Source: Meghimatium bilineatum
Lineage: Eukaryota > Mollusca > Gastropoda > Stylommatophora > Philomycidae
Assembly (NCBI GenBank): GCA_034231615.1
Contig: CM067307.1
Span: 2,213,647 to 2,277,646 of the forward strand
DNA: 64,000 nucleotides
Direction of reading: 5' to 3'
The translations under genes and the position numbers were made by a program. Below the pieces are notes generated by a model. It had not been told where the DNA came from and made no database searches. It worked only from the letters and a program-made list of their open reading frames with translations. Each line of letters opens with the position of its first letter. The first letter of the stretch is position 1. This document shows, one piece after another, positions 15,958 to 42,883 of the stretch.

Positions 15958-16803
15958 TTACCAGGCCCTATATCCTAATTCATGGTACAGGAAGTCATCA
16001 AGCATTTCAAGTAATCGAAGCCCATCACATGCGGTTGATACTGCTACAGCCAGGATATAAGCAAATATGTTGTCGATCTCTGGACCTCGACCAATGAGCT
16101 CGATCTGCATAGAACTAGACGAGTGTCTTCGATGTAATTTTCTATATCTCAGTACTGCAGCTACAATCACGAGAAGTACAGCCAGAACTATTGGTAATGC
16201 TGTATCAACGGATCTGAAGATTTTCATAGCGTCCTGTGTTGGAAAGAGGCAACCTGCTGAAGCATATTCGTGACGGAAGTAGTGCACGATGATGGGTACT
16301 ACTACAAGAGAAGCTACCCAAGGGAAAACTAAAAGTCCGATAGTAGCTATTGTCACAACTCTCGGTGTCAGCTTCATTTTGGGATTGAAGTCTTCGATCT
16401 GAGCAATGAAGACAACAATCAGCATTACCAACAGCCAGTTACCGATAAAATCATGAATCAGACTGAGATTCCAAACAACAGAGTTGAAAATACAACCCAA
16501 ATTCAACTGACTGTTCCATTTCGCTACTCGCATAGGTATGACAATCGAACTGTCCAATAGATTAAGAACTAGACTGTTACAGATAATCTTGTTACGTAGA
16601 CGTGATCGTGTGTCTTTTGACCACAAGATGGCCACCAGAAACCAAACATTGAGTAAAGTACCAACTACAGCTTGAATAGTCTCTAGAGTGTAGAAGGTAT
16701 TTACGGTTTCTAGAAAATAATCCGTGTAATCTGACATATCATCTGTGTGATTTGTTTCGTTACTGCTCATTACTGCAGTGTGATTTGTTTCGTTACTGCT
16801 CAT
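15958..16803 (-). CDS. Rhodopsin-like (class A) GPCR-type receptor, copy 1, TM1-TM6 exon
   Basis: An intact 281-codon frame for a membrane receptor, presumably a plasma-membrane chemo- or peptide receptor; the ligand is unknown. The extracellular N-terminus has four N-glycosylation sequons, from a duplicated SSNETNHT. Six membrane segments lie at about 41-61, 74-92, 105-134, 150-172, 200-219 and 244-262. Class A marks are Asn52 (TM1), Asp84 in NLLDSS (TM2), Cys104 and Cys185 (the usual disulphide), Trp162 and Pro170 (TM4) and Pro204 (TM5). The DRY motif is replaced by QIEDF (135-139), with no Arg. TM6 lacks CWxP. TM7 is absent: the frame stops at TGGTAA, which overlaps a possible splice donor CTG|GTAAAT conserved in copy 2. 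The first ATG follows an in-frame stop about 36 bases upstream, and CTGCAG just before it could be an acceptor. The gene is probably multi-exon. It is about 85% identical to copy 2, with differences mainly in predicted extracellular parts. Confidence 0.85.
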   Translation of the reverse strand: MSSNETNHTAVMSSNETNHTDDMSDYTDYFLETVNTFYTLETIQAVVGTLLNVWFLVAILWSKDTRSRLRNKIICNSLVLNLLDSSIVIPMRVAKWNSQLNLGCIFNSVVWNLSLIHDFIGNWLLVMLIVVFIAQIEDFNPKMKLTPRVVTIATIGLLVFPWVASLVVVPIIVHYFRHEYASAGCLFPTQDAMKIFRSVDTALPIVLAVLLVIVAAVLRYRKLHRRHSSSSMQIELIGRGPEIDNIFAYILAVAVSTACDGLRLLEMLDDFLYHELGYRAW

Positions 16804-16862
16804 TACTGCAGTGTAGTTTTTATTAGAACAAACAGCTTACACATTTCATTTATTCAGTTCAG

Positions 16863-17303
16863 ATGTTATTTTCAGTTGTAAGCTTCAGATATTCAAATAT
16901 GTTGTTCTGTTCAGATATTCAAATATGTTGTTCTGTTCAGATATTCAGATATGTTGTTCTGTTCAGATATTCAAATATGTTGTTCTGTTCAGATATTCAA
17001 ATATGTTGTTCTGTTCAGATATTCAAATATGTTGTTCTGTTCAGATATTCAAATATGTTGTTCTGTTCAGATATTCAAATATGTTGTTCTGTTCAGATAT
17101 TCAAATATGTTGTTCTGTTCAGATATTCAAATATGTTGTTCTGTTCAGATATTCAAATATGTTGTTCTGTTCAGATATTCAAATATGTTGTTCTGTTCAG
17201 ATATTCAAATATGTTGTTCTGTTCAGATATTCAAATATGTTGTTCTGTTCAGATATTCAAATATGTTGTTCTGTTCAGATATTCAAATATGTTGTTCTGT
17301 TCA
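16863..17303. repeat. 26-bp minisatellite upstream of receptor gene 1
   Basis: About 16 nearly perfect units of TTCAGATATTCAAATATGTT plus GTTCTG. Unit B has only two or three degenerate, spaced copies (about 43,015-43,160). The array begins about 60 bp upstream of the receptor ATG. Frames through it are repeat translations. Confidence 0.97.
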
Positions 17304-18160
17304 GCAGTTATGTATGATTGTTAAAACCAGATGTTCTGTATAATTTGTCGAAACGGTCCTGCTCAGTTTATCAAGTCAGTTTTCTATTCGTTTGTTGAAA
17401 TCCGTTGTTCTGTAAATGTTCCTCTGTTAAACTTATTATGTTTAATTGTTCCAAGTAGTTTCTCTTGTTCACTTTGATTAATTATTCTCATCAATTCTTC
17501 GCCTTTCTTATTCTGTTCATTTGTTCTGGTTTCGATCTTATGTTCAACTGTTATGTTTGTTTATGTTAACTCGGTTGTTTCTGCTGTAAAAATGTACTGG
17601 TTCAATTCGGCTGAATTATTCACATTACGTTAATGTTGTATTGTTAACTTCAACTGTTAACTTGAATTGTTAACTTCAATTATTAACATCAGCTGTTCTA
17701 TTTACTGTTGGTATTGTTCTGTGTAGATTCTGCAGACTGTATCCGTATTCTCTAGGAAGATAGTAACAATACAAATAATAAATTTAGTTTGTGATTTCAC
17801 TAGAACATTTTGTGATTATTTCTACTAAATTAATAAAGTTCTACTTTTGTTATATTTATTTTAGAAAGTAACATGTTTGCATTTTAAAATTTATCATAGA
17901 AAAGTAACAATTTCTTAAAAGTAATAATTGAAAGATACATTGTACACTCTATAATGTCTCATCTGTAAATCGACAAAAACTAGATTGACCACTTCACTTT
18001 GCTGACTACTTCAATGTCATGGACTTTGAGTGTCTGTGATAATCATATGAAGGTAATGTAATCGTGCTTCTCAGATGACCGAATCGGATACGTAACAGGT
18101 ATTTTGGTCGAAACATCTATTTGTGTGTGTGTTTATGTGTTTCTAGTAATGATAACAATT
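17304..18160. repeat. Segmental duplication, unit A part P4 (receptor 5' flank)
   Basis: Colinear with about 43,255-44,030: TTGTTAAAACCAGATGTTCT, GTTGAAATCCGTTGTTC, GGTTCAATTCGGCTGAATTA, CTCTAGGAAGATAG and GTGCTTCTCAGATGACC are shared. By eye about 80-85% identical, clearly less than the receptor exon. No open frame. It ends near a GGTCGAAACATC motif resembling the Penelope 3' motif in unit B (44.27 kb). Confidence 0.85.
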
Positions 18161-18249
18161 CCTTACCTGTTCCAAGTTTTGCCTATTGTTGCAATGTAAA
18201 GGTTGAAAGTAAATCATTACCTTATTCACGATACATTTATAAAAATCGC

Positions 18250-18555
18250 TGGTACCTACCCTATACCTGGATTTACCTGCTGGTATAATATGTACTTACA
18301 CTATACCTCAACTTACTTTCTGGTATAATATGTACTTACACTATACGTGAATTTACCTGCTGGTATAATTTGTAACCACACTTTACCTGGATTTACCTGC
18401 TGGTATAATATGTACTTACCTCAAACCTGGATTTACCTGCTTTTACACTGTATCTGGACTTACCTGCTGGTGTAATATGTACTTAACTATACCTGGATTT
18501 ACCTGCTGGTGTAATATGTACTTACCACATACATGGAATTACCTGCTTGTATAAT
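18250..18555. repeat. About 40-bp minisatellite with minus-strand splice-donor motifs
   Basis: About eight units around GGATTTACCTGCTGGTATAA followed by TATGTACTTA. The reverse complement of each unit contains CAG|GTAAAT, a good 5' splice-site match, on the sense strand of the receptor gene. Not found in unit B. Confidence 0.9.
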
Positions 18556-18577
18556 ATATTATATTGTATGGATGTGA

Positions 18578-18740
18578 GAGCTGGACACTCACTGCACATA
18601 AAAAGAAAGCTGGACACTGCACATAAAGAAAGCTGGACACTCACTGCACATAAAGAAAGCTGGACACTCACTGCACATAAAAAGAAAGCTGGACACTGCA
18701 CATAAAAAGAAAGCTGGACACTGCACATAAAAAGAAAGGT
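18578..18740. repeat. 25-bp minisatellite, about six units
   Basis: Units of AAAGCTGGACACTGCACATA plus AAAAG, with an extra TCACT... step in some. Confidence 0.95.
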
Positions 18741-18949
18741 TGAAGACGTTTAAATATACGTGTTTACATGTGTAGGTATGCAGATGTGTGTGTGTTTTAT
18801 ACAAGTGTTATGGGTGTGTGTGCATACAAGTGTTACTGTCTGTGTGTTATACAAATGTTACATTTGGGTGTTATATATTTGCTTTTGAAAACTTTAAAAA
18901 AATGTATTTGTCAGAGTCAAAATAACAGAACTTGCAGAACGATATCAAC

Positions 18950-19495
18950 CACAGTTGACAACAGCCACAGTTGACAACAACCACAGTTGTCAACAACCCC
19001 AGTTGATAGAAATCACAGTTGACAACAACCACAGTTGATAGAAATCACAGCTGACAACAGCCACAGTTGATAGCGACCACAGTTGACAACAGCCACAGTT
19101 GACAACAACCACAGTTGACAACAGCCACAGTTGATAGCGACCACAGTTGACAACAGCCACAGTTGACAACAACCCCAGTTGACAACAACCACAGTTGATA
19201 GGAACCACAGTTGACAGCAGCCACAGTTGATAGAAATCACAGTTGACAACAGCCACAGTTGATAACGACCACAGTTGACAACAGCTACAGTTGACAACAA
19301 CCACAGTTGACAACAGCCACAGTTGACAACAACCACAGTTGACAACAGCCACAGTTGATAGCAACCACAGTTGACAACAGCCACAGTTGACAACAGCCAC
19401 AGTTGATAGCAACCGCAGTTGACAACAGCCACAGTTGACAACAACCACAGTTGACAACAACCACAGTTGACAACAACCACAGTTGAGAACATCCA
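18950..19495. repeat. 16-bp minisatellite
   Basis: About 33 units of CCACAGTTGACAACAG with GATAG and ACAAC variants. Minus-strand cysteine-rich open frames (up to 180 codons) are repeat translations, not cysteine-rich proteins. Confidence 0.97.
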
Positions 19496-19689
19496 CTATT
19501 GATAGTTGTGAAATGTGATAGCGGGGAAACATCTTGGTAGGATACCATCAAGGATGGTCGATGTCTTACGTTTCCGCTCTGGGTCCGTAATGGCCGAAGA
19601 TAAAGACTGAATTTATGACAGGACTACTTGCTAAACGAGTTACACGGTTTGTTACATTATTGTATATATTTTTAAACCTCAAACATACT

Positions 19690-19905
19690 GTATCTGTAAG
19701 TGATGTCTGTGTGTGACATTGTCTACCACACTGTGAACATATGTAGAAGCTGTCTGTATGACATTGTCTACCACACTGTGAACATATGTAGAAGCTGTCT
19801 GTATGTGGTATTGTCTACCACACTGTGAACATATGTAGGATCTGTCTGTGTGTGACATTGTCTACCACACTGTGAACATATGTAGGATCTGTCTGTGTGA
19901 CATAT
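19690..19905. repeat. About 45-bp tandem repeat, four units
   Basis: Units of ACATTGTCTACCACACTGTG plus AACATATGTAG and AAGCTGTCTGT/GATCTGTCTGT. Recent and nearly identical. Confidence 0.93.
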
Positions 19906-20344
19906 CGCAGCTCTTGTATCTCTTCCAATGTCTATATTCGTTTTTCAACGTGATGTATGATATTTTCTGTACCTGTCTCACGACTATTGCTTGTGAGACC
20001 CACAGTGTGATCTTCTTCTGGAGAACGCTCCCACAAATGTGTGTGTGTGTGTGTTTTTTTTTTAAGTGAGTTAGTAATTTCTTTAAAGAGTCTTTAAAAC
20101 GTCTCTTATGTCTTCCGAGCTAGTCTGTAGTTCTCAATATAACAACTTGTTTGGTAGAAAATCTATCATGCGGACAATGTGCCCTGCCCAGCGTGTCTGC
20201 GGCTTCATCAACATCATGTGTGTGTATGCTTACGTTATGTATAAGAAGTACAGAACAAGATACGAAATGAAGAGATGTGGAGACACACAGATTAAGGGAA
20301 GAAATTACGAGATATGGAGACGAATACAGCAGTATTAGAAATGA
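19906..20344. repeat. Unique flank containing P6 segment
   Basis: The last part (GAACAAGATACGAAATGAAG..., about 20,250-20,300) matches 49.48-49.53 kb. A short GT tract lies at 20,037-20,053. No gene recognised. Confidence 0.6.
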
Positions 20345-22795
20345 CAACATTGAGATCACACTGAGGTAGTACAACATTGAGATCACACTGATGTAAGTAC
20401 AACATTGAGATCACACTGAGGTAGTACAACATTGAGATCACACTGATGTAAGTACAACATTGAGATCACACTGACGTAGTGCAACATTGAGATCACACTG
20501 AAGTAAGTACAACATTGAGATAACACTAAGGTAAGTACAACATTGAGATCACACTGAGGTAGTACAACATTGAGATCACACTGAGGTAGTACAACATTGA
20601 GATCACACTGAGGTAAGTACAACATTGAGATCACACTGAGGTAAGTACAACATTGAGATCACACTGAGGTAGTACAACATTGAGATCACACTGAGGTAAG
20701 TACAACATTGAGATCACACTGAGGTAAGTACAACATTGAGATCACACTGAGGTATGTACAACATTGAGATCACACTGAGGTAGTACAACATTGAGATCAC
20801 ACTGAGGTAAGTACATCATTGAGATCACACTGAGGTAAGTACAACATTGAGATCAAACTGAGGTAAGTACAACATTGAGATCACACTGAGGTAGTACAAC
20901 ATTGAGATCACACTAAGGTAGATCAACATTGAGATCACACTGAGGTAAGTACAACATTGAGATCAAACTGAGGTAAGTACAACATTGAGATCACACTGAG
21001 GTAAGTACAACATTGAGATCACAATGACGTAGTGCAACATTGAGATCACACTGAGGTAGTACAACATTGAGATCACACTGATGTAAGTACAACATTGAGA
21101 TCACACTGAGGTAGTACAACATTGAGATCACACTGATGTAAGTACAACATTGAGATCACACTGAGGTAAGTACAACATTGAGATCACACTGACGTAGTGC
21201 AACATTGAGATCACACTGAAGTAAGTACAACATTGAGATAACACTAAGGTAAGTACAACATTGAGATCACACTGAGGTAAGTACAACATTCAGATCACAC
21301 TGAGGTAGTACAACATTGAGATCACACTGAGGTAAGTACAACATTGAGATCACACTGAGGTAAGTACAACATTGAGATCACACTGAGGTAGTACAACATT
21401 GAGATCACACTGAGGTAAGTACAACATTGAGATAGAACTGAGGTAAGTACAACATTGAGATCACACTGAGGTAAGTACAACATTGAGATAGAACTGAGGT
21501 AGTACACCATTTAGATAGAACTGAGGTAGTACACCATTGAGATCACACTGAGGTAAGTACAACATTCAGATCACACTGAGGTAGTACAACATTGAGATCA
21601 CACTGAGGTAGTACAACATTGAGATCACACTGAGGTAAGTACAACATTGAGAGATCACACTGAGGTAAGTACAACATTGAGATAGAACTGAGGTAGTACA
21701 ACATTTAGATAGAACTGAGGTAGTACAACATTGAGATCACACTGACGTAGTGCAACATTGAGATCACACAGAGGTAAGTACAACATTGAGAGATCACACT
21801 GAGGTAGTACAACATTGAGATAGAACTGAGGTAGTACAACATTTAGATAGAACTGAGGTAAGTACAACATTGAGATAGAACTGAGGTAGTACAACATTTA
21901 GATAGAACTGAGGTAAGTACAACATTGAGATCGCACTGAGGTAAGTACAGCATTGAGATCACACTGATGTAAGTACAACATTGAGAGATCACACTGAGGT
22001 AGTACAACATTGAGATAGAACTGAGGTAGTACAACATTTAGAAACAACTGAGGTAAGTACAACATTGAGATAGAACTGAGGTAGTACAACATTTAGATAG
22101 AACTGAGGTAAGTACAACATTTAGATAGAACTGAGAGAGTACAACATTTAGATAGAACTGAGATAGTACAACATTGAGATCGCACTGAGGTAAGTACAAC
22201 ATTGAGATAGCACTGAGGTAGTACAACATTGAGATCACACTGACGTAGTGCAACATTGAGATCACACTGAGGTAAGTACAACATTGAGATCACACTGAGG
22301 TAAGTACAGCATTGAGATCACACTGAGGTAAGTACAACATTGAGATCACACTGAGGTAAGTACAACATTGAGATCACACTGAGGTAAGTACAACATTGAG
22401 ATCACACTGAGGTAAGTACAACATTGAGATCACACTGAGGTAAGTACAACATTGAGATCACACTGAGGTAAGTACAACATTGAGATCACACTGACGTAGT
22501 GCAACATTGAGATCACACTGAGGTAGTACAACATTGAGATCACACTGAGGTAAGTACAACATTGAGATCACACTGAGGTAAGTACAACATTGAGATCACA
22601 CTGACGTAGTGCAACATTGAGATCACACTGAGGTAGTACAACATTGAGATCACACTGAGGTAAGTACATCATTGAGATCACACTGAGGTAAGTACAACAT
22701 TGAGATAGCACTGAGGTAAGTACAACATTGAGATAGCACTGAGGTAGTACAACATTGAGATAGCACTGAGGTAGATCAACATTGAGATAGCAATG
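20345..22795. repeat. 27/28-bp minisatellite, about 88 units, carrying splice-donor consensus
   Basis: Units of TACAACATTGAGATCACACT plus GAGGTAAG (28 bp) or GAGGTAG (27 bp). Sub-variants GATAGAACTGAG, GACGTAGTGC and GAGAGATCAC occur in patches, the last mainly after 21.6 kb. In the 28-bp form each junction reads GAG|GTAAGTAC, a near-perfect 5' splice site on the plus strand. A variant string around 20,471 recurs 718 bp later at 21,189, showing internal block duplication. Minus-strand frames are repeat translations. Confidence 0.97.
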
Positions 22796-23455
22796 CATCA
22801 CGTGCGATGATATACTGTTCACTGACACACCTGTTCACTAATCTATCTACATACATCAGACATTGTACTACCTCGACACGTTCATTCTATCTGACACACC
22901 TGTTCACTAATCTATTTCTTCTATCTGTTTGATATAATTGTATTATTTGGTGTCTTATCTTAAGGAAAAGTGTATAGATAATTAATACCACGTGATATTA
23001 AATAACTTACCTTATATCAATTAAAATAGTATAGAGGATGTGTTATCCTTGAAATAAATACACACGCTGTGAGAATTGTGGGAACTCCTACAATTGAATA
23101 CGACTTTCGTGAAGTTAGTGTGGTGAACTGGTGGAGACAATTTGTGTAAGTAGTATTAGTACTAGACAACATGATCTCCGGCGTTAGTTGTTTCATGTGA
23201 TAAGAAAAGTGGGATGTGTCGGATCATATTTCAAATATGGAGGTTCGTCTTCATGAGAAATGAGCATCAGAAATAGATAATGCGATAACTTAATGACATT
23301 CTTGATAAAATGTTTCAGTTTACAGAAATTCTTATTCAGCAAAAGTAGAGGGAGTTGATTTGTTCTGTTCTCATCAAAGTTTGTCAGCAATATACACTTA
23401 GCGGAGACGGTCAATCAATGTAAGAATAATCACTCGATGTGACATCGCTGTAAAT
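22796..23455. repeat. Segmental duplication P1 (middle copy)
   Basis: From about 22,960 it is colinear with 51,110-51,560 (GTGGGATGTGTCGGATCATA, TACTAGTACTAGACAAC-like and GAATACGAC.TTCGTGAA blocks). The leading part has a short tandem theme (CTGTTCACTAATCTAT, twice). No gene. Confidence 0.8.
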
Positions 23456-23972
23456 GATAACCGTACTTGTATATCTCAACTGTACTTGTATATCTCAACT
23501 GTACTTGTATATCTCAACTGTACTTGTATATCTCAACTGTACTTGTATATCTCAACTGTACTTGTATATCTCAACTGTACTTGTATATCTCAACTGTACT
23601 TGTATATCTCAACTGTACTTGTATATCTCAACTGTACTTGTATATCTCAACTGTACCTGTATATCTCAACTGTACTTGTATATCTCAACTGTACTTGTAT
23701 ATCTCAACTGTACTTGTATATCTCAACTGTACTTGTATATCTCAACTGTACTTGTATATCTCAACTGTACTTGTATATCTCAACTGTACTTGTATATCTC
23801 AACTGTACTTGTATATCTCAACTGTACTTGTATATCTCAACTGTACTTGTATATCTCAACTGTACTTGTATATCTCAACTGTACTTGTATATCTCAACTG
23901 TACCTGTATATCTCAACTGTACCTGTATATCTCAACTGTACTTGTATATCTCAACCGTACTTGTAGTGAAAG
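23456..23972. repeat. 19-bp minisatellite
   Basis: About 27 units of CTTGTATATCTCAACTGTA, almost perfect. Because 19 is not a multiple of three, all three plus frames stay open and give the same repeating peptide in turn. These are not genes. Confidence 0.98.
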
Positions 23973-24602
23973 TTTCTCGCGCATGTTTGGCTTCGCAATT
24001 CTTGAAATATTTCCTACAGTACAGCAATTGTCAATTCATTTAGAAAACGTACAAAGTGTATATTTGAATACTGGCAAAGCTGTTCAATAAGCTATAGCTC
24101 CTTGAGATAATACTCTCACAGCGTTGTTTAAATTGTTTCTTGGAAATCTATTTGCTCAAGATCTGTTGTATTATCAATTGCCATCTTGTTATACTTGAAA
24201 CAAGAACATGTAGAATAACACAAAAAGAGGTGCCCCACGTGAAGGATATCATCAGATGAAATATGACAACGCTTTAGGTAGAGTTTTCACTGTTCACTCC
24301 AAGATATTATGCACGCTTCTGTTTAAGAATGTTGTTTCACGAGGTTAAAGAACATAACATTCTTCACAGATGAAATATATAACATGACTTTGTGTGCCAT
24401 AGAAGATGAAATACTATCTATGGAAGCTGCAACTGCTGCCACCTTACTGTCCTCCTCACACAAGTCGGACACAGACTGCCAGTTTACCAACTGAAATGTT
24501 ACGAGACACGGCGTGTGATAACAATTTCTTAGTTACGTTGTGCAAGAGAATGAACCCAACTTGCTGTAAGATCACAAACTTGCTTACACTGTAATAACAG
24601 AT
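23973..24602. other. Intergenic, nothing recognised
   Basis: Unique sequence between the P1 array and the RTE-like LINE. Short open frames lack motifs. Confidence 0.5.
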
Positions 24603-24611
24603 GGCATATCT

Positions 24612-26455
24612 CATCATCATCATCATCATCAAGTGCCGTCTCCGCAACGAAGGTTGGCTGCAACGTATCTCCAACATCTCCTGTCTCTTGTCTTGGTGGT
24701 GCACTCTGCTAGACTGTAACCTGTCCATCGTGTAATGTTACTCTCCCACTTGTATCTCTGCCTACCTCTTGCTCGCTTCCCTTTGACTCTACCCTCAAGT
24801 AAGGTCTTCAATAGGGTGTCATGTCTTTTAATGTGTCCAAAGTATTTTATTTGCCTGATCTTTATTTCTCTTAATAGTTCTTTCTTCATATTAAGTGTCT
24901 TTAGCACCTCTTTATTTGTTTTCTTCTCTTTCCATGATGTTCTCTCTATTCTTCTATATACCCACATCTCAAAGGCATCAATTTTGTCTTCTAATTGTTT
25001 ATTTAGTGTCCATGTTTCTGAGCCATACATTAATATGGAATAGATGTAGCATTTTATAATTCTCATTTTTAACTTGTTTGTAATTTGTTTAGATATTAAT
25101 AATTTCCTCATGTCATTGAAGGTACTTTTAGCCATTCCTATTCTCCTTTTAACTTCTGTTTCACATCTGCCATCATTTGTGACTATGTGTCCAAGATATT
25201 GATACTGTTTTACTTGTTGTAGTTTCTCTCCCTGTATGTTTATGTTTACCTCCTGTTCTTCTGTGTCTTTGATGATTATCATGGTTTTTGTTTTTTGAAT
25301 GTTTATATCCAGTCCATATTCATTACTTGATTTATTGACTTGATCTATTAGTCTTTGTAGTTCATGTTCACTTTCTGCTAAAAGAACAGTGTCATCTGCA
25401 TATCTAATGTTGTTTATTATTTTCCCATTGATCTTGAGTCCTGGCGTTTCTTCTATATTTTTAAAGATATTCTCTGTGTAGATATTAAATAGGCTTGGTG
25501 ATAAAATGCATCCTTGTCTTACCCCTCTTCTTATTTCTATGTATGGAGAGTAGCTGTTTTCACACCTTAGTGATGCAGTTTGTTCCCAATATATATTTCT
25601 AATCAGCCTGATGTCTTTTCCATCTATGCCTATTTCTTGAAGACATTTGATTAATTTTTCATGTTGGACTCTGTCAAAGGCCTTGCTGTAGTCTATGAAG
25701 CAAATATAGATACTTTTTTGGACTTCTATATATTTATCTATCACTAGCCGGATACTCAGTATAGCTTCTCTGGTTCCTTTGTTTTTCCTAAAACCGAATT
25801 GTTCTTCACCGACCTCCATGTCTATCTTGTTCTTAATTCTTTCATGTATTATCTTGAGAAGTATTTTAGTTATATGGCTCATTAGACTTATTGTTCTATA
25901 TTCTGTACAGTCCACAGCCCTGGGCTTCTTAGGTAGTGGTATGAATATTGATGATGTTAGGTCTTTAGGTATATGGCCTGTTTCGTATATGTCATTGCAA
26001 ATTTCTGTGATAGTATCTACACCAAATTCATTTAGAGTTTTTATTATGTCTGCTGTTATGTTGTCAGAGCCTGCAGCTTTTCCACATTTTATTGAATTTA
26101 TTGCATGTTCTACTTCTGATTTCAGTATTGCTGGTCCATCATTGTTGTGTATTGTTGGTTTTTTGTTCCGTTGGTCGTCAAACAGTTCTGTTACATAATC
26201 TGCCCATCTTGTGAGTGCTTCTGTTTTATCAAATATTATTTTACCATTTTTATCTTTAATGCAGCCACCCCCATTTATAGGTTTTTTCTTATTTGTGATC
26301 AGCCTTATCTCCTTATGCATTAATTTTGTCTTCTGTTGTATGGACATCTCCTCTATTTCACTGCATTTTGTTTCTAGCCATTGTTTTTTCGCTGTTCTGC
26401 ACATGTTACGTATCTCCTTGTCTGTACTTGAGTATTTTGGTGTATTTTTAGCTTT
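24612..26455 (-). mobile_element. RTE-like LINE, 5'-truncated, with ATG-type 3' tail
   Basis: The coding frame ends at 24,629 and is followed on the minus strand by a (TGA)n tail, seen as ATCATCATC at 24,612-24,630. RTE-type elements characteristically end in short tandem repeats. The left-hand (5') end of the element stops at about 26,455, where Helitron helicase sequence begins. A second, degraded copy with the same 3' end is at 38,490-40,170 and a short third copy of the 3' end is at about 62,485-62,680. Confidence 0.9.
24629..26404 (-). CDS. Reverse transcriptase ORF of the RTE-like LINE (endonuclease missing)
   Basis: A 591-codon uninterrupted frame that stays open upstream of this ATG to the truncation point near 26,455, so the ATG is just the first in the truncated frame. 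Motifs in order: GKAAGSDNI (108-116), RTISLMSHITKILLKII (170-186), EQFGFRKNKGT (201-211), DYSKAFD with the first catalytic Asp (238-244), RRGVRQGCILSPSLFN (292-307), RYADD with the catalytic pair (334-338), YLGHIVTNDG (403-412), the ETWTL thumb motif, and a C-terminal GKRARGRQRYKW (542-553). No endonuclease is encoded, so this copy could not move by itself even though the RT frame is intact. The open frame suggests a young insertion. Clade assignment (RTE-like) is inferred from the C-terminal layout and tail. Confidence 0.9.
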   Translation of the reverse strand: MCRTAKKQWLETKCSEIEEMSIQQKTKLMHKEIRLITNKKKPINGGGCIKDKNGKIIFDKTEALTRWADYVTELFDDQRNKKPTIHNNDGPAILKSEVEHAINSIKCGKAAGSDNITADIIKTLNEFGVDTITEICNDIYETGHIPKDLTSSIFIPLPKKPRAVDCTEYRTISLMSHITKILLKIIHERIKNKIDMEVGEEQFGFRKNKGTREAILSIRLVIDKYIEVQKSIYICFIDYSKAFDRVQHEKLIKCLQEIGIDGKDIRLIRNIYWEQTASLRCENSYSPYIEIRRGVRQGCILSPSLFNIYTENIFKNIEETPGLKINGKIINNIRYADDTVLLAESEHELQRLIDQVNKSSNEYGLDINIQKTKTMIIIKDTEEQEVNINIQGEKLQQVKQYQYLGHIVTNDGRCETEVKRRIGMAKSTFNDMRKLLISKQITNKLKMRIIKCYIYSILMYGSETWTLNKQLEDKIDAFEMWVYRRIERTSWKEKKTNKEVLKTLNMKKELLREIKIRQIKYFGHIKRHDTLLKTLLEGRVKGKRARGRQRYKWESNITRWTGYSLAECTTKTRDRRCWRYVAANLRCGDGT

Positions 26456-26457: not shown

Positions 26458-27050
26458 TTCTTTCTCATCAAGCTGGTGATATTCTATTTTTGGACGCACC
26501 AGGCGGAACTGGGAAAACATTTGTCACTAATTTATTAATGGCATATGTTCGCAAACAGCAACAAATTGTGGTAGCAACAGAGTCGTCTCGTATAGCGGCA
26601 ACATTGTTACATGGCGGTCGTGCAGCTCATTCAAAATACCACTAGATTAGTAAGACATGATGATGTTGTATGCAATGATTCTGTAATGGCAGAGGTATTT
26701 AGAAGATGTGTTCTTATAGTATGGGATGAATGTATAATGCCCCACAAAAGAGCATTGGAATCCCTTAACAAGACTCTACAAGATTTAAGAGGCAACGAAA
26801 CTATAATGGGATATATAACTGTTGTCTTGTCTGCAGATTTTCACTGGACTCTGCCAGTAAAACCAAAAGTAACTAAAGCTGATAATATTAAAGCATATCT
26901 CAAACAATTATATTTATGCAACCATGATCTTAGCTTCAAACTCACAACTAACATTTATGGAACCATGTTGTTAACTTCAAACTTACAACATGCAGCAATG
27001 GGTACTTCTGCTTCTGCAAGTGATGGTGATATCTGTCATAGATTATGGCC
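26458..27050 (+). pseudogene. Helitron Pif1-like helicase fragment
   Basis: The Helitron replication protein has a 5'-3' superfamily 1B helicase. Walker A is visible as LDAPGGTGKTFVTNLL, followed by VVATESSRIAATLLHGGRAA. After a frameshift near 26,630 the next frame gives RHDDVVC, VFRRCVLIVWDE (Walker B with DE), HKRALESLNKTLQDLRGNE and VVLSADFHWTLPV, where the usual G-D-F-R-Q reads A-D-F-H-W. The last part (LYLCNHDLSFKLTTN) matches the following helicase segment. Rep nuclease, motifs V-VI and Helitron ends are not present. It is a fragment wedged between two LINEs. Confidence 0.88.
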
Positions 27051-28205
27051 TCCGCCTACTAACACTGTCATAAACACAAGTCGACAGATTGGAAAACGTC
27101 CATAATGAGGCAATGAGAGCGGTACAGTGGTGTGTTAGAGATACACCCATCTCTGCTATGCTATGAGATTTCTGCGTGATCTCCCCAGCATTACAGTGCG
27201 ACATCAGGTAGCACATGTTAAGTCGTACCTTAAAGTGTCAGAATACAACCACTACCCATTACACCATCGTGTAGATGAGTCAAAGGAAAAACTAATAAAG
27301 CGTGGCAGATCATGGATGGTAGAGGCTGAAGACACACTGCGAAGAATATGTGAATTAGAAGAAATAGGAAAGGGCAGTGAATGGGTGGAGGTAGACACTG
27401 AGAAGAAATCACTGACTAAAGTAATAATACATCTAGATAAAGCGTGTCGATGGACGGGTGTCAGGGCTTAGGATACTGTGCATGAACTCGCCCAGCTACA
27501 GTCGAAACCACAAGACATAATTATATACACAGATTGCTCTCTTAACAGAAACACAAATAAAAACGGTTAGCGTTTTGTTGTTTACAGAAATGGCGTGAAG
27601 TTGGTTGAGAAATCTTCAGCATATTCTACTGTCACATCGAGCATGAGGATGGAGATAGAGGGAGTTACAGCAGCACTTAATTGGTTGATAACTGATACAT
27701 CAACACACTCTGCAATACGCAGAGACCCTCAAAGCATGTTGCGCAAGATAGAAAAGTTCATGCTAAGAAAAGAATGGAGGGACTTATTGAACAACTCAGT
27801 TGTCCAGAGCATTACATGGATATACTGCCCTGGTCATGCTGGGGTCAGAGGAAACGAGAGAGCCGACTTATTGGCAATCACTGCGAAGATGGACGGCACA
27901 TTGCTGAGAAGAGATAAAGCAGACTTACTGAAGGCAGTAATGCATTTATTTTAGATGAAGATGATGTCAATGAGGTTAAGAACGTACACATACAGAGAAT
28001 ATTAGAAATCGGAGTATCTAGAGGTGAGGGAAAGAAAAGTAAATTTTTTGGAAAGTCCCGAAGATCACACAATCAACACCTGACCGGAACTATGAGTCTA
28101 CATACACTGGGATGACTGCTGGAGCGGAGGCCGGAGCACTTATGGGAATGTCCCGCGTGATGTGAAGCCAGTTTCTAATCAAGAATCAAGAATCAAGAAT
28201 TACAA
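27050..28205 (+). mobile_element. LINE with RNase H (L-RLL family), 5'-truncated and broken
   Basis: It starts within the post-RT region: DRLENVHNEAMRAVQWC, then LPSITVRHQVAHVKSYLKVS and RGRSWMVEAEDTLRRICELE. An RNase H follows: YTDCSLNRN (first Asp), SSMRMEIEGVTAALNWL (Glu), then CPGHAGVRGNERADLL (His and Asp). It ends with a frameshifted LLERRPEHLWECPA zinc-binding C-terminus at about 28,110-28,160 and a short AATCAAG-type tail (28,180-28,200). Stops at 27,469, 27,954 and elsewhere inactivate it. This is the longest copy of the family whose tails are at 4.65, 6.4 and 35.8 kb. Confidence 0.85.
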
Positions 28206-33850: not shown

Positions 33851-33885
33851 TTCATATCAACAGAGTTAGTATTTTCCACAAGAAA

Positions 33886-35405: not shown

Positions 35406-35584
35406 ATTATGGCGGTAAACAAGGGTCTTTGAGTGTGTATGAACACAGAACGTAACGCAGGTCTGCATCTTGAGTGGCTCTATGAGTATGATTAGGAAGA
35501 TACAAGTGAGCCTAGTTAGCGAACAGTGGATTAAGGCCTTGAGAAAGGCGAGGTTGAATGTAGTTACATTTATTTTTGTAGTAG

Positions 35585-35925
35585 AATAGCAGTAGAATTG
35601 GCATCAGTCTCGATTGTCGCACAGGGCGATGTGCAATCGATCGAGCTGACGTTTTGAACTCCATAAGAGATATAGCACGCGAGACTGAGACTAGTATGGA
35701 TTATCAATCGTTTTCCATGGCCAGGATTAAAGAACAGGGTCTGAAATGCGGCGTTGCTAGAAGTGAACATTTTGGAGGGCGCAGTAGAATGATGGTAAAC
35801 CGGCAGGGGACGGGTACTGTCAGCAGAAGTGTAATGGCGGATACACTCAGGGAGAGAACAAAGCAACTATGAACGTCATATGGTTATGAAGTTTGCAGTG
35901 ATGAAGATCCGACGGCTAATTAACT
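35585..35925 (+). mobile_element. LINE C-terminal remnant, paralogue of 6,110-6,505
   Basis: A 72-codon frame (35,654-35,872) includes ARIKEQGLKCGVARSEHFGG, GTGTVSRSVMADTLRERTKQ. The RNase H motif seen in unit A is mostly deleted. Inherited from before the duplication. Confidence 0.75.
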
Positions 35926-35929
35926 ATTA

Positions 35930-37435
35930 ACTGAACCCATATTACCCAGCAGCAGGAATAGACAACATGACAATGAAAACATAAACAGCAAAGAGGCATA
36001 GAAATAATAAGAAGGAGCTACTTACTTTCTGACACGTCACAATATTATCGCATATTAAGCGACTAAAAGTCTCATAGTCTGAATACTGATCATTATTAAG
36101 TCCTGCGACACCTTGCAGCAAATGTGGACACCATACAAGTAGAAAGACAGACCTACGGATGGACGGACAGACAGACAAACAGATGAATTTAAACCTCAAT
36201 TATAAATGCCCTCCGATTAAAACTCATTTCCTGCCTGCATGTGCATATAGATTATCCACAAATTATGAACAAAAATCAATAAAATATCAACTTGTGATCA
36301 GTTTTACTCTTTCCTATATGCCACAGTTAAATCTATTCCAATTACATGACGATGCCAGGGTCTCCAAGTTATGATTTGTTTACGGAAATCAGTCAGAAGT
36401 AGCCATGCTAATGGCATCAGAATAATACGTGCGTCAGCCATCGTCTCTCTGGCACACATGAAGTAAAACCTGCAAAAAGGAAAATAATAAATGCAATAAG
36501 TTTGGTGTTTTAGTTCAACGTGATTGATTTTCAATTTATTCAAATATAATTTATTTTCTTAACATCAATGTATATGTATAGATTAACTTTCACTTCACGT
36601 CTCTTTCAACCCGATCCCAAAGGTTCTATGTTATATCAGGTTATGTCAATGCAATATTTATAGATTTCACCATTATCCCTGTTACATATTTTTTTTTTCA
36701 AACAAACAAGCTCAATTATTTTCCTTATGAAAACAAAACCTGAGAATTAATTTTCCCACTTAATATTTCTGAGACATGTCATGCAGAAATTTACAACGAT
36801 AAATAAAATAGTGGAGATTGCGGTTACGGTAATCCAATCAGCACCCATCTCTTGCTTACTGATGACCGGTAGTTGACATGGTATGATTACCAAAACCCTC
36901 GACCTCAATTATATTTTGATGATTTTGAAAACTCTGATAAAACCAGATTGGAAAAATGTCCGCGGTTAACAATAAAGCACGTCACATTGAGATTTAATGA
37001 AACAAATAAATAAACATATGAAACATCTGACAGCTGTTACAAGGGGTAGGGGGGGGGGTATATCTCCCTCAAATAATGACGTCATTAATATATGTTTTCC
37101 GCAGAAAGATGTATGGGAGCACTGAGGAGATTTCAAATACAGCAGCATTTATTCAGAAAACAGGACTTGCTGTGTAGACATGTCAAACTGCGAACGAGAA
37201 CAAGAAGAAGAAGATATATGTTTTAATATATCAATTTGAATGTATGTAATATCTTTTGTAAACACTTGAAGAATTATTTTTTTTTTGGTGAGGGGTGAAG
37301 GAATAATATTTTGTTTACATAATTAGACAAGAGAGTTCCGTAATTCTTGATAGTCTTGTGACATGTGGGGTGAGCAGGGGGTGAGCAGGGGTGAAAATTT
37401 GCTAAGGAAAAGCTATTGACGTTGTTTATGAACAG
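35930..37435. other. Unit B intergenic DNA
   Basis: Paralogous to 6.5-7.74 kb. A G-run is at about 37,049-37,058. About 130 bp at 37.09-37.22 kb, ending in AAGAAGAAGAAG, have no counterpart in unit A and could be a small insertion. No gene. Confidence 0.6.
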
Positions 37436-37439
37436 CATA

Positions 37440-37925
37440 CATGAATTTCAGAGAATCTCAGATATATTTGAAACACTACAGTAATATTCTGTTAGAATCT
37501 CAGATATCATTGAAACACTACAGTAATATTCTGTTAGAATCTCAGATATCATTTCAAACATTACAGTAATATTCTGTTAGAATCTCAGATATCATTTCAA
37601 ACATTACAGTAATATTCTGTTAGAATCTCAGATATCATTTCAAACATTACAGTAATATTCTGTTAGAATCTCAGATATCATTTCAAACATTACAGTAATA
37701 TTCTGTTAGAATCTCAGATATCATTGAAACACTACAGTAATATTCTGGTAGAATCTCAGATATCATTGAAACACTACAGTAATATTCTGTTAGAATCTCA
37801 GATATCATTGAAACACTACAGTAATATTCTGTTAGAATCTCAGATATCATTGAAACACTACAGTAATATTCTGTTAGAATCTCAGATATCATTGAAACAC
37901 TACAGTAATATTCTGGTAGAATGTC
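37440..37925. repeat. 42/43-bp minisatellite with two phased sub-variants
   Basis: About 11 units with ACAGTAATATTCTGTTAGAA and TCTCAGATATC. Two linker forms, ATTGAAACACT and ATTTCAAACATT, are clustered: first two units of the former type, then a block of four of the latter, then five of the former. Confidence 0.96.
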
Positions 37926-37994
37926 CCAGTTCATTCGAAATCTGCAATAACAATCTCGGGAAATCAAAGAGATCATTGGAGAGTTGCAGCAACA

Positions 37995-38435
37995 TTCGCG
38001 ACCAGCATCGTCATACTCTAGTCAGTTATCATCGTTATACTCTAGTCAGTTATCATAGTTATACTCTAGTCAGTTATCATCGTTATACTCTAGTCAGTTA
38101 TCATAGTTATACTCTAGTCAGTTATCATAGTTATACTCTAGTCAGTTATCATAGTTATACTCTAGTCAGTTATCATAGTTATACTCTAGTCAGTTATCAT
38201 AGTTATACTCTAGTCAGTTATCATAGTTATACTCTAGTCAGTTATCATAGTTATACTCTAGTCAGTTATCATAGTTATACTCTAGTCAGTTATCATCGTT
38301 ATACTCTAGTCAGTTATCATAGTTATACTCTAGTCAGTTATCATAGTTATACTCTAGTCAGTTATCATAGTTATACTCTAGTCAGTTATCATAGTTATAA
38401 TCTAGTCAGTTATCATCGTTATACTCTAGTCAGTT
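37995..38435. repeat. 24-bp minisatellite, single-copy in unit A
   Basis: About 18 units of ACTCTAGTCAGTTATCATAG plus TTAT. Unit A has one diverged unit at about 7,985-8,010 (CATACTGTAGTTAGTTATTA). The 254-codon plus frame is a repeat translation. Confidence 0.97.
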
Positions 38436-38489
38436 ATGATGCGTGCTTTTCTGCCCTTATGAAACCATTTTCCCACTTATGGTTGTAGT

Positions 38490-40172
38490 TATATCATCAT
38501 CATCAAGTGCCGTCTTAGTAACGGAGGTTGGCTGAAACTAAACTCAAACATTCACTGTCTCTTGTCTTGGTGGTGCACTATGCTAGACTGTAACCTGTCC
38601 ATCTTGTGATGTTACTCTCCCACTTGTATCTCTGCTTACCTCTTGCTCGCTTCCCTTTGACTTTACCCTCAAGTAAGGTCTTCATTAAGGTGTCATGTGT
38701 TCAAAATATTTTATTTCCCTGATCTTTATTTCTCTTAGTAATTCTTTCTTCATATTAAGTGTTTTTATCACATCTTTGTTTGTTTTCTTCTCTTTCCATG
38801 ATGTTCTCCCTATTTTTCTATATACCCACATCTCAAAGACATACATTCAGTCTTTTAATTGATGTTTTAGTGTCCATGTTGCTGATCCATACATTAATAT
38901 AGAATAGATGTAGCATTTTATCATTCTTATTTTTAACTTGTTTGTAATTTGTTTAGATATTACTATTTTCCTCATGTCATTGAAGGTACTTTTAGCCATT
39001 CCTACTTTTAACTTCTGTTTCACATCTGCCATCATTTGTGACTATGTGTCCAAGATATTGATACTGTTTTACTTGTTGTAGTTTCTCTCCCTGTATGTTT
39101 ATGTTTAGCTCTTGTTCTTCTGTGTCTTTGCTGATTATCATAGTTTGTTTTTTTGGATATTTATATCCAGTCCATATTCATTACTTGATTTATTGACTTG
39201 GTCTATTAGTCTTTGTAGTTCATGTCCACTGACTTCTAAAATAACAGTGTCATCTGCATATCTAAGGGTGTTTATTATTTTCCCATTGACCTTGAGTCCT
39301 GGTATTTCTTCTATATTTTTAAAGATATTCTCTGTGTATATATTAAATAGACTTGGTGATAAAATGCATCCTTGTCTTACCCCTCTTCTTATTTTTATGT
39401 ATAGCGAGTAGCTGTTTTCACACCTTAGTGATGCAGTTTGTTCCCAATATATATTTCTAATCAGTCTGGTGTCTTTTCCATCTATGCATATTTCTTGAAG
39501 ACTTATGATTAATTTTTCAAGTTGGACTCTGTCAAAGACCTTGCTGTAGTCTATATAGAGCGAATATAGATACTTTTTTGGAATTGTATGTACATATTTA
39601 ACTATCACTAGTCAGATACTCAGTATAGCTTCTCTGGTTCTTTTGTTTTTCCTAAAACCAAATTGTTCTTCACCGTCCTTTAGGTCTTAATTCTTTCATG
39701 TATTATCTTGAGGAGTATTTTAGTTAAATGACTCATTAAAAGTATTATTATATATTATGTACAGGTCACATCCCTGGGCTTCTTAGGTAGTGGTATGAAT
39801 ATTAATGATGTTAGGTCTTTATGTATATGGCCTGTTTCATATATGTCATTGGAAAGTTCTGTGATAATATCCACACCAAACTCATTTAGATTTTTTATTA
39901 TATCTGATGTTATGTTGTCGGAGCCTGCAGCCTTTCCACCTTTTATTGCATTTTCTACTTCTACTTTCAGTATTGCTGGTCTATCATTGTTGTGTATTGT
40001 AGGTTTGTTTGTTCCGATGGTCGTTAAACAGTTGTGTCATATAATCTACCCATCTTGTAAGTACTTCTGTGTTATCATGTATTATTTTTCCGTTTTTATC
40101 TTTAATGCAGCTACCCTCAGTTATATGATTTTTCTTATTTGTGATCAAGATTCTATTTTGATCTGTCATCTC
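38490..40172 (-). mobile_element. RTE-like LINE, second copy, degraded
   Basis: Close relative of 24,612-26,455, with the same ATC-repeat 3' tail (38,493-38,504) and the same 3' end (AAGTGCCGTC). The longest open piece (39,608-39,138) keeps DYSKVFDRVQ, RRGVRQGCILSPSLFNIYTE and RYADDTV; others are at 39,035-38,847 and 40,169-39,984. Several frameshifts and indels. It was inserted at the end of part P2 of unit B; unit A lacks it. Confidence 0.9.
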
Positions 40173-40174
40173 TT

Positions 40175-40412
40175 TTCCTCCTTGAGTGTTCTATGCAAAA
40201 TATTTCTTTTGTAAATCAATCTTGTCTCGTTACACGTTCAAACCAAACATCTTACGCCGCTTCAACACTGTCAGATGTGTTTTTTGATAACTGGAAAGGT
40301 TGTTCATTTGATGCTGGACGATTATATTTACCTTGTGTTCTACATAACGAATATACGTGCCTTGTGTTCTATATAACGAATATGCGTGCATTGCGTTCTA
40401 TATAACGAATTA
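40175..40412. repeat. Segmental duplication, unit B part P3
   Basis: Matches 14,140-14,375, including the repeated TTGTGTTCTATATAACGAAT motif. Precedes a Penelope fragment that is absent from unit A at this place. Confidence 0.85.
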
Positions 40413-40419
40413 TTACTTT

Positions 40420-40955
40420 TGTAACCATCTTCATGCCATCAAGCACAGAACACCAACTCCTGTGGCCACACACTTCAACGGCGATGGTCATCACGGTGCT
40501 CTTGATATTCATGTCTCTGCCATCAGATTTTGAACCACCGATGATAGATCTAGGTACGCTCTAGAAAATCTTATTTTTGAATTTGGTACACTCAAGACTT
40601 TTGGACTCAATTCCGACCACTCTTATGTCTAGTACTGGGTTGGAGTGGTCTTTGTCTTTATCCATTTTGTTCTGTCATTTACGTCGTCTTTTGGTTTGTT
40701 TCGTTTCCACATACATTTACGTTTTTCCTGTACCTCCGGCGTCTCATTTCCATATTTTCGTTGGTTACGTTTGTGTGTTGTGATAATTTCCATTCGTCGT
40801 CTTGTGATGTTTTGTGCATTTCTTGATAAAGATCTTTTGGTTGAAACGTTTAATATGTTTTGTGTATTGTAATTTGTATGCTTTCTTGTGTGCATATCAT
40901 TACCCACTAGTTTTAGTTATAGTCCGTCGTGTCTGGGCGAAACTATTATAAAAAC
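40420..40955 (+). mobile_element. Penelope-like element 3' fragment
   Basis: NHLHAIKHRTPTPVATHFNG then HHGALDIHVSAI match the nuclease C-terminus at 10.1-10.2 kb. The 3' region has CTTGATAAAGATCTTTTGGT followed by TGAAACGTTTAA, a motif also seen at 44.26 and 46.03 kb in a form close to GTCGAAACGTC. Only the end of the nuclease and the 3' non-coding part remain. Confidence 0.8.
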
Positions 40956-40984
40956 CTGTATTTTACGTAAGTATAAATATATTT

Positions 40985-41490
40985 AGGAACCAAGATCACA
41001 GCAGACGGAGATACCAACTCAGAAATAACGACTCGAACCGCTCTCGCTTCCAACGCTTTTAACAAACTTTCAATCATCTGGAGATCGAAGATCGTAAGTA
41101 AACACATCAAACTGCGACTATTCATTGCAAGTTTCCATTATTGACATATGAATGTGAAAGCTTGAAATCTACTGTAATAATGGATAAGAAGTTAGTTACC
41201 TTCGAGAATAGAGGCCTCAGAAAGATCACATATACTACTTGGAGAGATTTCAAATCAAACGATATACTAAGAGAGTAGACAAAACAAGAATATGTGACGA
41301 ACATCATCAGAAATAGCTGCTGGAAATAAATCGGCCACATACTTAAAATGAAGAAAGACAGAATTCCACGACGTCTTCATGTGGACACCAGAGGGTAAAG
41401 AAAACAGGGAAGACCAAAGACAACGCTCAAAAGAAAGGCCCTATGTGCCAAATTGGCAAAAGAGTAATTGACTGACTGACTGACTGACTG
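40985..41490 (+). mobile_element. LINE 3' end remnant with ACTG tail
   Basis: YLGTKITADGDTNSEITTRT then ALASNAFNKLSIIWRSKIVS match the region after the RT core. Later IGHILKMKKDRIPRRLHVDT, GRPKTTLKRKA. It ends in a (GACT)n run at 41,470-41,489. Frameshifted. It belongs to yet another LINE family in this window. Confidence 0.75.
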
Positions 41491-41496
41491 AATCGT

Positions 41497-41605
41497 AATC
41501 TTACAAACGGTCAGTGATCACAGGCTGAGTGATACGTGTTTAACGAATACAAGATGGAAGTAACTGTTGATGTTTCTATAGTGTATCCATGATGATCTGA
41601 CAAAG
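41497..41605 (-). other. Highly conserved segment downstream of receptor gene 2 (candidate 3' exon)
   Basis: Near-identical to 15,735-15,843, with a plausible minus-strand acceptor (AACTTTGTCAG before ATCATCATGG). Its conservation matches the receptor exon rather than the flanks. See the copy 1 entry for frame limits. Confidence 0.5.
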
Positions 41606-41607
41606 TT

Positions 41608-42045
41608 ACATGTAAACATACACACACGTGACATACACACGCGTGACATACACACGTGACATACACACGCGTGACATACACACGCGTGACATACACACGT
41701 GACATACACACACGTGACATGCACACACGTGACATACACATACGTGACATGCACACACGTGACATACACACACGTGACATACACACACGTGACATACACA
41801 CACGTGACATACACACACGCGAAATACACATACGTGACATGCACACACGTGACATACACATACGTGACATACACACACGTGACATACACATACATGACAT
41901 ACACATACGTGACATACACACACGTGACATACACACACGTGACATACACAAACGTGACATACACACACGTGACATAAACACACGTTGCATAGGGACAGGT
42001 GACATGGGGACAGGTGACTTACACACACGTGACATATACACAACG
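41608..42045. repeat. 15-bp minisatellite between receptor ORF 2 and its downstream segment
   Basis: About 28 units of CACACACGTGACATA. ACGTGA recurs in nearly every unit and some units have GCGTGA. Frames of 92-176 codons on both strands are repeat translations. Confidence 0.97.
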
Positions 42046-42058
42046 AAATTATAATCAT

Positions 42059-42883
42059 TTACCAGTTCCAGAGTCCTAATTTATAGTACGGTAAGGCACC
42101 AAGCGTGGTAAGTAATCGAAGCCCATCACATGCGGTTGATACTGCTACAGCCAGGATATAAGCAAATATGTTGTCAATCTCTGGACCTCGACCAATGAGC
42201 TCGATCTGCATAGAACTAGACGAGTGTCCTCGATGTAATTTTCTATATCTCAGTACTGCAGCTACAATCACGAGAAGTACAGCCAGAACTATTGGTAATG
42301 CTGTATCAACGGATCTGAAGATTTTCATAGCGTACTGTGTTAGAAAGAGGCAACCTGCTGAAGCATATTTGTGACGGATGTTGAATTCATGCACGATGAT
42401 GGGCACTACAACAAGAGAAGCTACCCACGGGACAACTAAAAGTCCGATAGTAGCTATTGTCACAACTCTCGGTGTCAGCTTCATTCTGGGATTGAAGTCT
42501 TCGATCTGAGCAATGAAGACAACAATCAGCATTACCAACAACCAGTTACCGATAAAATCTTGAATCAGACTGAGATTCCTAACAACAGAGTAGAAAATAC
42601 AATCCATGTCCAATTTAAAGTTACGCTTCCAATTCTCTACTTGTAAAGGTAGGATAATCGAACTGTCCAGTAGATTAAGAACTAGACTGTTACAGATAAT
42701 CTTGTTACGTAGACGTGATCGTGTGTCTTTTGACCACAAGATGGCCACCAGAAACCAAACATTGAGTAGAGTACCAACTACAGCTTGAATAGTCTCTAGA
42801 GTGTAGAAGGTATTTACTATTTTGTCAAATTGCTCCATGTAATCTGATGTATCAGTTGTGTGATTTGTTTCGTTACTGCTCAT
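42059..42883 (-). CDS. Rhodopsin-like (class A) GPCR-type receptor, copy 2, TM1-TM6 exon
   Basis: An intact 274-codon paralogue of 15,958-16,803. Class A marks: Asn41, Asp73, Cys95, Trp153, Pro161, Cys178 and Pro197, with QIEDF (126-130) again replacing DRY. The N-terminus has one SSNETNHT where copy 1 has two. Intracellular loop 1 is identical to copy 1; loops 2 and 3 each show one change. The stretch around ECL1 (80-102), ECL2 (165-183) and everything after TM6 (259-274) differ strongly, including small indels. The frame ends at TGGTAA in CTG|GTAAAT, as in copy 1. Both copies being open and sharing unusual motifs argues for function. The final exon is not identified. The ligand is unknown. 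Confidence 0.85.
   Translation of the reverse strand: MSSNETNHTTDTSDYMEQFDKIVNTFYTLETIQAVVGTLLNVWFLVAILWSKDTRSRLRNKIICNSLVLNLLDSSIILPLQVENWKRNFKLDMDCIFYSVVRNLSLIQDFIGNWLLVMLIVVFIAQIEDFNPRMKLTPRVVTIATIGLLVVPWVASLVVVPIIVHEFNIRHKYASAGCLFLTQYAMKIFRSVDTALPIVLAVLLVIVAAVLRYRKLHRGHSSSSMQIELIGRGPEIDNIFAYILAVAVSTACDGLRLLTTLGALPYYKLGLWNW

Follow-up and report, generated by a model that had tools for sequence, protein, structure and literature searches.

Why would two neighbouring genes be almost identical over most of their length, silent sites included, and differ most where a ligand would be met? The question is raised by receptor genes A and B on the minus strand of a 64,000-nucleotide (nt) stretch of the Meghimatium bilineatum genome (GCA_034231615.1; 1.61 Gb in 32 contigs), C10:2213647-2277646 (contig CM067307.1), hereafter the window. 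An earlier note on this DNA had proposed a core held by gene conversion or strong constraint, with diversifying selection on the extracellular loops, and that interpretation is supported: among close copies the synonymous divergence (dS) of the core lies below the divergence of the flank, and the ratio of replacement to synonymous divergence (dN/dS, omega) of the loops exceeds 1. We consider it probable that A and B belong to a single-locus, divergent family of rhodopsin-like seven-transmembrane (7TM) receptors, in which gene conversion homogenises the core and diversifying selection acts on an outer face devoted to ligand recognition, with constraint on the core remaining a partial alternative to conversion.

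Gene structure and genomic organisation

The listed open reading frames (ORFs) comprise 281 codons in A and 274 codons in B, and both terminate at TGG TAA AT; a phase-2 GT donor lies at the same position in all eight intact copies of this exon in the genome. A search for protein-level conservation downstream of exon 1 recovered, in five of the six regions examined, a further exon preceded by a proper acceptor, and seven genes splice in frame into products of 327-337 residues, 54-56 of which come from exon 2, the source of transmembrane helix 7 (TM7) and a short tail. In gene A, the coding part of exon 1 (15962..16803, minus strand) is defined by the 281-residue ORF, the phase-2 donor (TG/GTAAAT) and the fit of acceptor and frame in exon 2, and covers the N-terminus, TM1-TM6 and extracellular loops 1-3 (ECL1-3). 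Exon 2 (6732..6903, minus strand), identified by protein conservation, genome search and the spliced frame, completes the split codon with its last base and adds TM7, a helix-8-like stretch, a short tail and the stop. Gene B is arranged in the same way, with exon 1 at 42063..42883 (minus strand; ORF and donor) and exon 2, carrying TM7 and tail, at 36304..36469 (minus strand; the same three lines of evidence as for exon 2 of A). Intron 1 spans ~9.1 kb in A and ~5.6 kb in B. Given the TM7-bearing second exon, A and B likely encode seven predicted helices. The divergence previously placed at the C-terminal end is real, but the segment concerned is ECL3 ahead of the splice donor, as the exons first described hold TM1-TM6 only.

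Collecting all paralogues in the genome, a check that the earlier note had proposed, recovered a single cluster of nine loci, and the supposed pair proved to be two of its members. The A protein gave ten genome matches, representing nine loci of which one was split in two (13 candidates scored), all on C10 at 1.767-2.257 Mb, that is, within 0.5 Mb. A query with the more distant copy L008 returned the identical nine loci plus three extra matches (E above 1), each interrupted by stops, and the TM7 exon was found in eight places, solely in this cluster (11 candidates scored). The genome-wide protein search yielded no convincing relative of exon 1 or exon 2 outside the C10 cluster. Eight exon-1 loci are intact and one is frame-broken. 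Exon-1 protein identity to A is 79-85% for B, L002, L004 and L005, which with A form the five close copies referred to below, and 58-59% for L006, L007 and L008, the other clade. Exon 1 of L005 (C10:1855349-1856179) is intact, and a DNA search of the 21 kb to the next copy did not find its TM7 exon (best E 0.034, 24 bases, other strand); L005 may share exon 2 of L002, or may be a relic. Assembly haplotigs were rejected as the origin of A and B, whose flanks are ~16-20% different and whose introns are unlike in length and repeats.

Distribution of divergence along the receptor

A and B were compared by Nei-Gojobori counts within regions whose borders we drew ourselves. The long stretch of identity at silent sites reported previously was confirmed, with 16,145-16,230 equal to 42,246-42,331 (the coordinates first given were one base off). 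TM5, TM6 and intracellular loop 1 (ICL1) show zero differences, and TM1, TM2, TM3 and TM4 show one, six, four and four, respectively. The cytoplasmic loops had been described as identical in ICL1 with one change each in ICL2 and ICL3; this holds for ICL1 and for ICL2 (one replacement), but ICL3 carries one replacement and one silent change. On the predicted outer face, the N-terminus (16693..16803 in A, minus strand, as are all features of A below) has 14 differences in 78 bases, in addition to a 33-nt tandem duplication in A (MSSNETNHTAV) that is without counterpart in the other seven aligned copies. The duplication doubles a glycosylation-like N-terminus (MSSNETNHT twice). ECL1 (16495..16524) had been thought to differ as often as it matches; the figure is about one third, with 10 of 30 aligned bases differing plus a 6-nt indel. 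Divergence was borne out in ECL2 (16213..16287), which varies around a conserved cysteine at residue 185 in the alignment and differs at 6 of 75 bases plus a 6-nt indel, and in ECL3 (15961..16008), which differs at 16 of 48 bases and in which every one of the 16 amino-acid columns is variable in the five close copies. Overall, dS and dN between A and B are 0.051 and 0.025 in the core and 0.155 and 0.252 in the extracellular parts, and flank identity is 79-85%, in line with the 80-85% estimated earlier (5′ flank differences 50/322 distal and 17/83 proximal).

The same profile extends to the five close copies, where divergence peaks on the predicted ligand-facing parts, the positions of the loops following from the putative topology. 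Counting gaps as variable, 55 of the 84 variable amino-acid positions fall within the 77 extracellular positions of 270, a number reached by none of the 269 circular shifts of the pattern (best shift 54). Tree-wide dS and dN are 0.43 (0.429) and 0.78 (0.776) over the 88 extracellular codons, and 0.149 and 0.109 over the 238 core codons, against a 5′ flank tree length of 0.511 on the same tree. Site-model counts refer to the five close copies and flank counts to four or five, because the distal 5′ flank of L002 differs and L005 is without exon 2. The 400 bases past exon 2 did not serve as a neutral reference, as 206 of 335 ungapped columns vary there and the alignment is poor.

Low silent divergence of the core: conversion or constraint

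Silent sites are depleted of variation in the core. Among four-fold degenerate core sites, 9 of 86 segregate in the five copies; with four copies, 9 of 87 segregate in the core and 92 of 310 sites in the 5′ flank (Fisher p 1.5e-4), and in exon 2 none of 14 core sites segregates against 52 of 212 in the preceding intron. Within TM5-ICL3-TM6 (16009..16212 in A) a single site of 38 segregates, and the four-fold difference is 0.018 within the five-copy clade and 0.467 between clades; for the TM7 core the corresponding values are 0.000 and 0.488. Four-fold sites in TM5-TM7 that vary between clades belong to codons that are not fixed, which favours conversion over codon constraint, and we regard this freeze within the clade, set against freedom between clades, as the strongest argument favouring recent homogenisation. 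Tandem duplicates would swap the coding core through interlocus gene conversion, keeping both the membrane bundle and the signalling face on the cytoplasmic side uniform among copies. Diversifying selection would meanwhile alter the outer end of TM7 together with the N-terminus and ECL1-3; conversions that overwrote the outer parts would be lost or obscured. The resulting proteins would most likely recognise differing ligands with one common output, functioning as chemoreceptors or as some other kind of recognition receptor, presumably expressed in sensory or other tissue.

Several results weigh against this account of the core. A GENECONV-type (Sawyer) permutation within the exon, also proposed as a check, was non-significant (p 0.06 with 18 sites in five copies; 0.17 with 56 sites in eight copies), as was the longest silent-invariant run within the five copies (p 0.08). 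The core is unevenly frozen: over all degenerate codons, the within-clade silent difference reaches 0.30 for codons 167-173 and 0.06-0.14 for codons 293-312. The loops do reject the best core tree, ((A,L002),(B,L005),L004), in the approximately unbiased (AU) test (0.006), a result in favour of the proposed account, but the best loop tree, ((A,B),(L002,L004),L005), is not rejected by the core (AU 0.42), and with the flank data all 15 trees pass the AU test. Our region borders were set after the alignment had been inspected, and it would still have to be explained why conversion tracts stop close to the borders of exons and loops.

It is possible, though unlikely, that there has been no conversion, with strong purifying selection that extends to codons holding the core and the loops relaxed or mildly selected. 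Such constraint would account for how closely the frozen parts track the coding core, for between-clade silent dips in or beside cytoplasmic loops (codons 68-77, 132-158 and 238-247), for the non-significant Sawyer-type test and for the slow silent sites of unchanged extracellular codons; it is at odds with four-fold differences in TM5-TM6 and TM7 of 0.47-0.49 between clades beside 0.018 and 0.000 within, with a core omega of 0.73, high for pure constraint, and with a loop omega above 1.

Divergence of the predicted outer face

Extracellular omega is 1.81 among the five copies (p 0.016 against 1). Site models of selection, a further check proposed at the outset, were applied to the extracellular codons only and favoured M8 over M8a (2dlnL, twice the difference in log likelihood, 22.6; p 2e-6), with a selected class of omega 5.7 comprising 22% of codons. 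By part, omega is 1.6 for the N-terminus, 0.4 for ECL1 (10 codons), 2.8 for ECL2 and 2.5 for ECL3 with the outer TM7, the single parts being too short for any to reach significance alone. Codon differences of a single base divide into silent and replacement as 34:215 in the extracellular parts and 87:123 in the core. In whole-gene site models, which assume a single silent rate and whose posterior sites are indicative only, sites with posterior ≥0.9 number five in the N-terminus, two in ECL1, one at the outer end of TM3, two in ECL2, four in ECL3, two in the outer part of the TM7 exon and none in ICL1-3. Codon models were fitted with our own script; the extracellular M0 likelihood (-1019.09) matches that of IQ-TREE on the same data, a comparison made on 103 extracellular columns where the main models used the 88 columns occupied in A. 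With the core data, the tree preferred by IQ-TREE (-1367.39) was not the fixed one (-1375.02).

The contrast between outer parts and core is less sharp in other measures, which speak against the combined reading of core conversion and outer selection. Whole-gene models (omega 9.8, 2dlnL 81) are inflated by the low dS of the core. In codons with unchanged amino acids, silent differences amount to 34/436 (0.078) in the extracellular parts and 87/1946 (0.045) in the core, and four-fold sites segregate at 1 of 7 and 9 of 86, respectively (p 0.56). The high extracellular dS is therefore due largely to multiply changed codons; with silent sites slow in the unchanged extracellular codons as well, a firm silent contrast exists between exon and flank and not between core and loops. 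Core omega (0.73) is indistinguishable from 1, and the core itself contains fast sites (M8 over M8a p 5.5e-5).

Conversion of the core beside loops that are unconverted and neutral, with no positive selection, is a scenario to which we attach little probability. Loop dS (0.43) near the flank value (0.51) is what loops retaining old divergence would show, and the overall replacement excess is moderate (omega 1.8, p 0.016); nevertheless, loop dN (0.78) lies above the flank, M8 is preferred over M8a in the loops (p 2e-6), unchanged loop codons do not reach the divergence of the flank, and in a second pair of copies the loop blocks differ several-fold more than the flank.

That second pair consists of L008 and the broken copy (C10:1908595-1909415; pieces L037 and L038), its recent relative. 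Their 5′ flanks show 13 mismatches and four gaps in 217 aligned bases, and the stretch from TM4 to ECL3 shows eight differences in 377 bases. In two blocks, late N-terminus with the top of TM1 and the end of TM2 with ECL1, the differences amount to 30.5 of 106 at replacement sites and 4.5 of 31.7 at silent sites; in the TM3 part, 7 of 66 replacement sites differ. The pair would represent an independent second case of outer-part divergence, although some of the changes in the broken copy may postdate its breakage. The near-identity of ECL2 and ECL3 counts against the selective reading and implies that not every loop diversifies in each pair. Local hypermutation of the outer parts, or their exchange from donor-template cassettes, would fit the confinement of large differences in this pair to the late N-terminus, the TM2-end/ECL1 block and, less so, TM3, with silent sites affected in the first two, but is highly improbable given that, in the five copies, extracellular dS does not exceed flank divergence and that neither block of the broken copy is closer to any of the eight intact exon-1 copies than to L008.

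A silent-frozen block at ICL2

One part of the core is frozen across both clades. Codons 132-158, about 80 bp running from the end of TM3 through ICL2 into the start of TM4, show near-zero silent change across the eight intact copies (16330..16410 in A; 42437..42517 in B, minus strand, located by the silent-variation run and genome search), a feature that is new to us. The run comprises 22 consecutive degenerate codons with the same amino acid and without silent variation (permutation p 5e-5), whereas 53 of the 75 such codons outside the block vary silently. Between clades, the silent difference is 0.00 at codons 132-151, 0.05 at 152-158, 0.10-0.18 at 112-131 and 0.33-0.34 at 159-173, against 0.40-0.48 among four representatives across larger parts of the gene; lesser dips, to 0.14 at codons 68-77 and to 0.17 at codons 238-247, fall within cytoplasmic loops or next to them, and a further one, to 0.27, is seen at codons 313-322. 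The stretch has nine places in the genome, all within the receptor family (9 candidates scored).

Either family-wide conversion or a constraint on DNA or RNA could account for the block; conversion may have reached the whole family here perhaps because a protein-fixed stretch offers the longest run of perfect homology. RNA folding of the block lent no support to RNA constraint (z -1.5 sense, -2.2 antisense), and no Rfam family came near its gathering score over window positions 15,500-17,000. An antisense frame through the block (42-75 aa, one frame) was rejected as unconvincing, its length varying among copies. As a long shot, the block in nine loci might serve as a conversion start or as a DNA or RNA signal, for instance for copy choice or pairing, in a cassette system in which a chassis is copied, the outer loops diversify as identity or ligand tags and L005 borrows the TM7 exon of its neighbour.

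Protein class of the receptor family

We assign the family with moderate confidence to divergent rhodopsin-like 7TM receptors (G protein-coupled receptors), on the basis of conserved residues and weak profile matches. N52, C104, W162, P204 and C185 are invariant across the eight copies, and we take them, by our own assignment of motifs and numbering, to be N1.50, C3.25, W4.50, P5.50 and the ECL2 cysteine; the position of TM1 is anchored also through an alignment with GPR84. Hydropathy places segments at the expected helix positions, several of them short or weak, and a low-confidence model of exon 1 (predicted local distance difference test, pLDDT, 41) shows six helical segments, to which exon 2 adds one that is TM7-like. 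The DRY place is occupied by the stretch LIVVFIAQIEDFNP, without arginine; at the CWxP place five of seven spliced members have CDxL and the remaining two CDFM and CDSF, and at the NPxxY place six of seven have MPxxW and L006 has MPxxY.

Neither window protein nor any of the seven spliced members matched a Pfam family at its cut-off, and none of the nematode SR families was above cut-off among the seven members scanned; the one receptor match below it was Srsx (E 0.0078 in one of seven). A PDB profile search with the seven members gave six matches at E up to 10, five to GPR84 and one to US27, a viral receptor, all weak (E 0.014-0.061) and spanning TM1-TM2 only. Three points tell against the assignment: a GntP permease match (E 0.0059 in one of seven) is slightly better than Srsx, the exon-1 profile finds one unrelated PDB chain (E 1.8) along with those receptors, and the AlphaFold2 model of the two window proteins, at pLDDT 41, is too weak for use. 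With moderate confidence, the proteins would be receptors outside current Pfam models, without DRY, CWxP or NPxxY.

Other features of the window

A non-coding block of about 90 nt lies in intron 1 near the exon-1 donor (15735..15830, minus strand) and is 95-99% identical among the five close copies, with a tree length of 0.08 against 0.51 in the 5′ flank. No other place in the genome was found for it among the 40 scored of 626 candidates, and it is followed by a stretch matching a genome-wide repeat. Its use as an alternative exon was rejected: an acceptor-like TTTGTCAG or CTGTCAG precedes it, and joining it to exon 1 gives an immediate stop in A, B, L004 and L005. Elsewhere, reverse transcriptase frames at 24,629-26,404 and 39,138-39,608 (both minus strand; Pfam RVT_1, E 3.9e-44 and 5.8e-24) are retroelement remains, and a PIF1-like helicase fragment at 26,611-27,105 (plus strand; Pfam E 1.2e-15) perhaps derives from a Helitron-type element. 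Tandem arrays with units of ~8-71 bases are many (e.g. 13,144-13,780; 18,845-19,600; 20,259-22,824; 23,335-24,080; 41,572-42,096); one lies just beyond the donor of exon 1 in gene B, and immediately upstream of gene A there is a 26-base array.

Comparison with known systems

The cluster is a compact, nine-locus case in which the probable homogenisation of a core and diversification of a predicted recognition face lie a few bases apart in one exon. It would offer a candidate family for chemoreception or for the recognition of mates or self, and would allow a clean test of whether selection or sequence steers conversion tracts. A search of the literature, in titles and the beginnings of abstracts, returned no description of this receptor family or of the exact core/loop pattern. 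Among families that invite comparison, CEACAM proteins are immunoglobulin-type receptors, not 7TM proteins. As is proposed here, concerted evolution through gene conversion is described for CEACAM, with escape backed by selection (PMC7042247). Of the SRZ chemoreceptors of Caenorhabditis, compared by description only, the excerpt reports no conserved potential disulfide and does not describe core conversion (PMC2576165), whereas in the present family cysteines before TM3 and in ECL2 are kept, and our Pfam scan gave no SRZ match. The Aplysia AcCR candidate chemoreceptors are alike in being clustered and rhodopsin-like; their N-terminus is short, they carry glycosylation sites, and subfamily a has one intron, but they keep the TM3 arginine and have the intron near residue 80-95 (PMC2700072), where the slug genes are without the arginine and have the intron between TM6 and TM7. 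Rodent V1R pheromone receptors belong to another family and likewise form clusters that combine gene conversion with adaptive change, although the excerpt does not describe a separation of the two forces between core and loops (PMC2644715). The pattern is known in kind from such systems, and here it appears in a receptor family unclaimed by the libraries searched.

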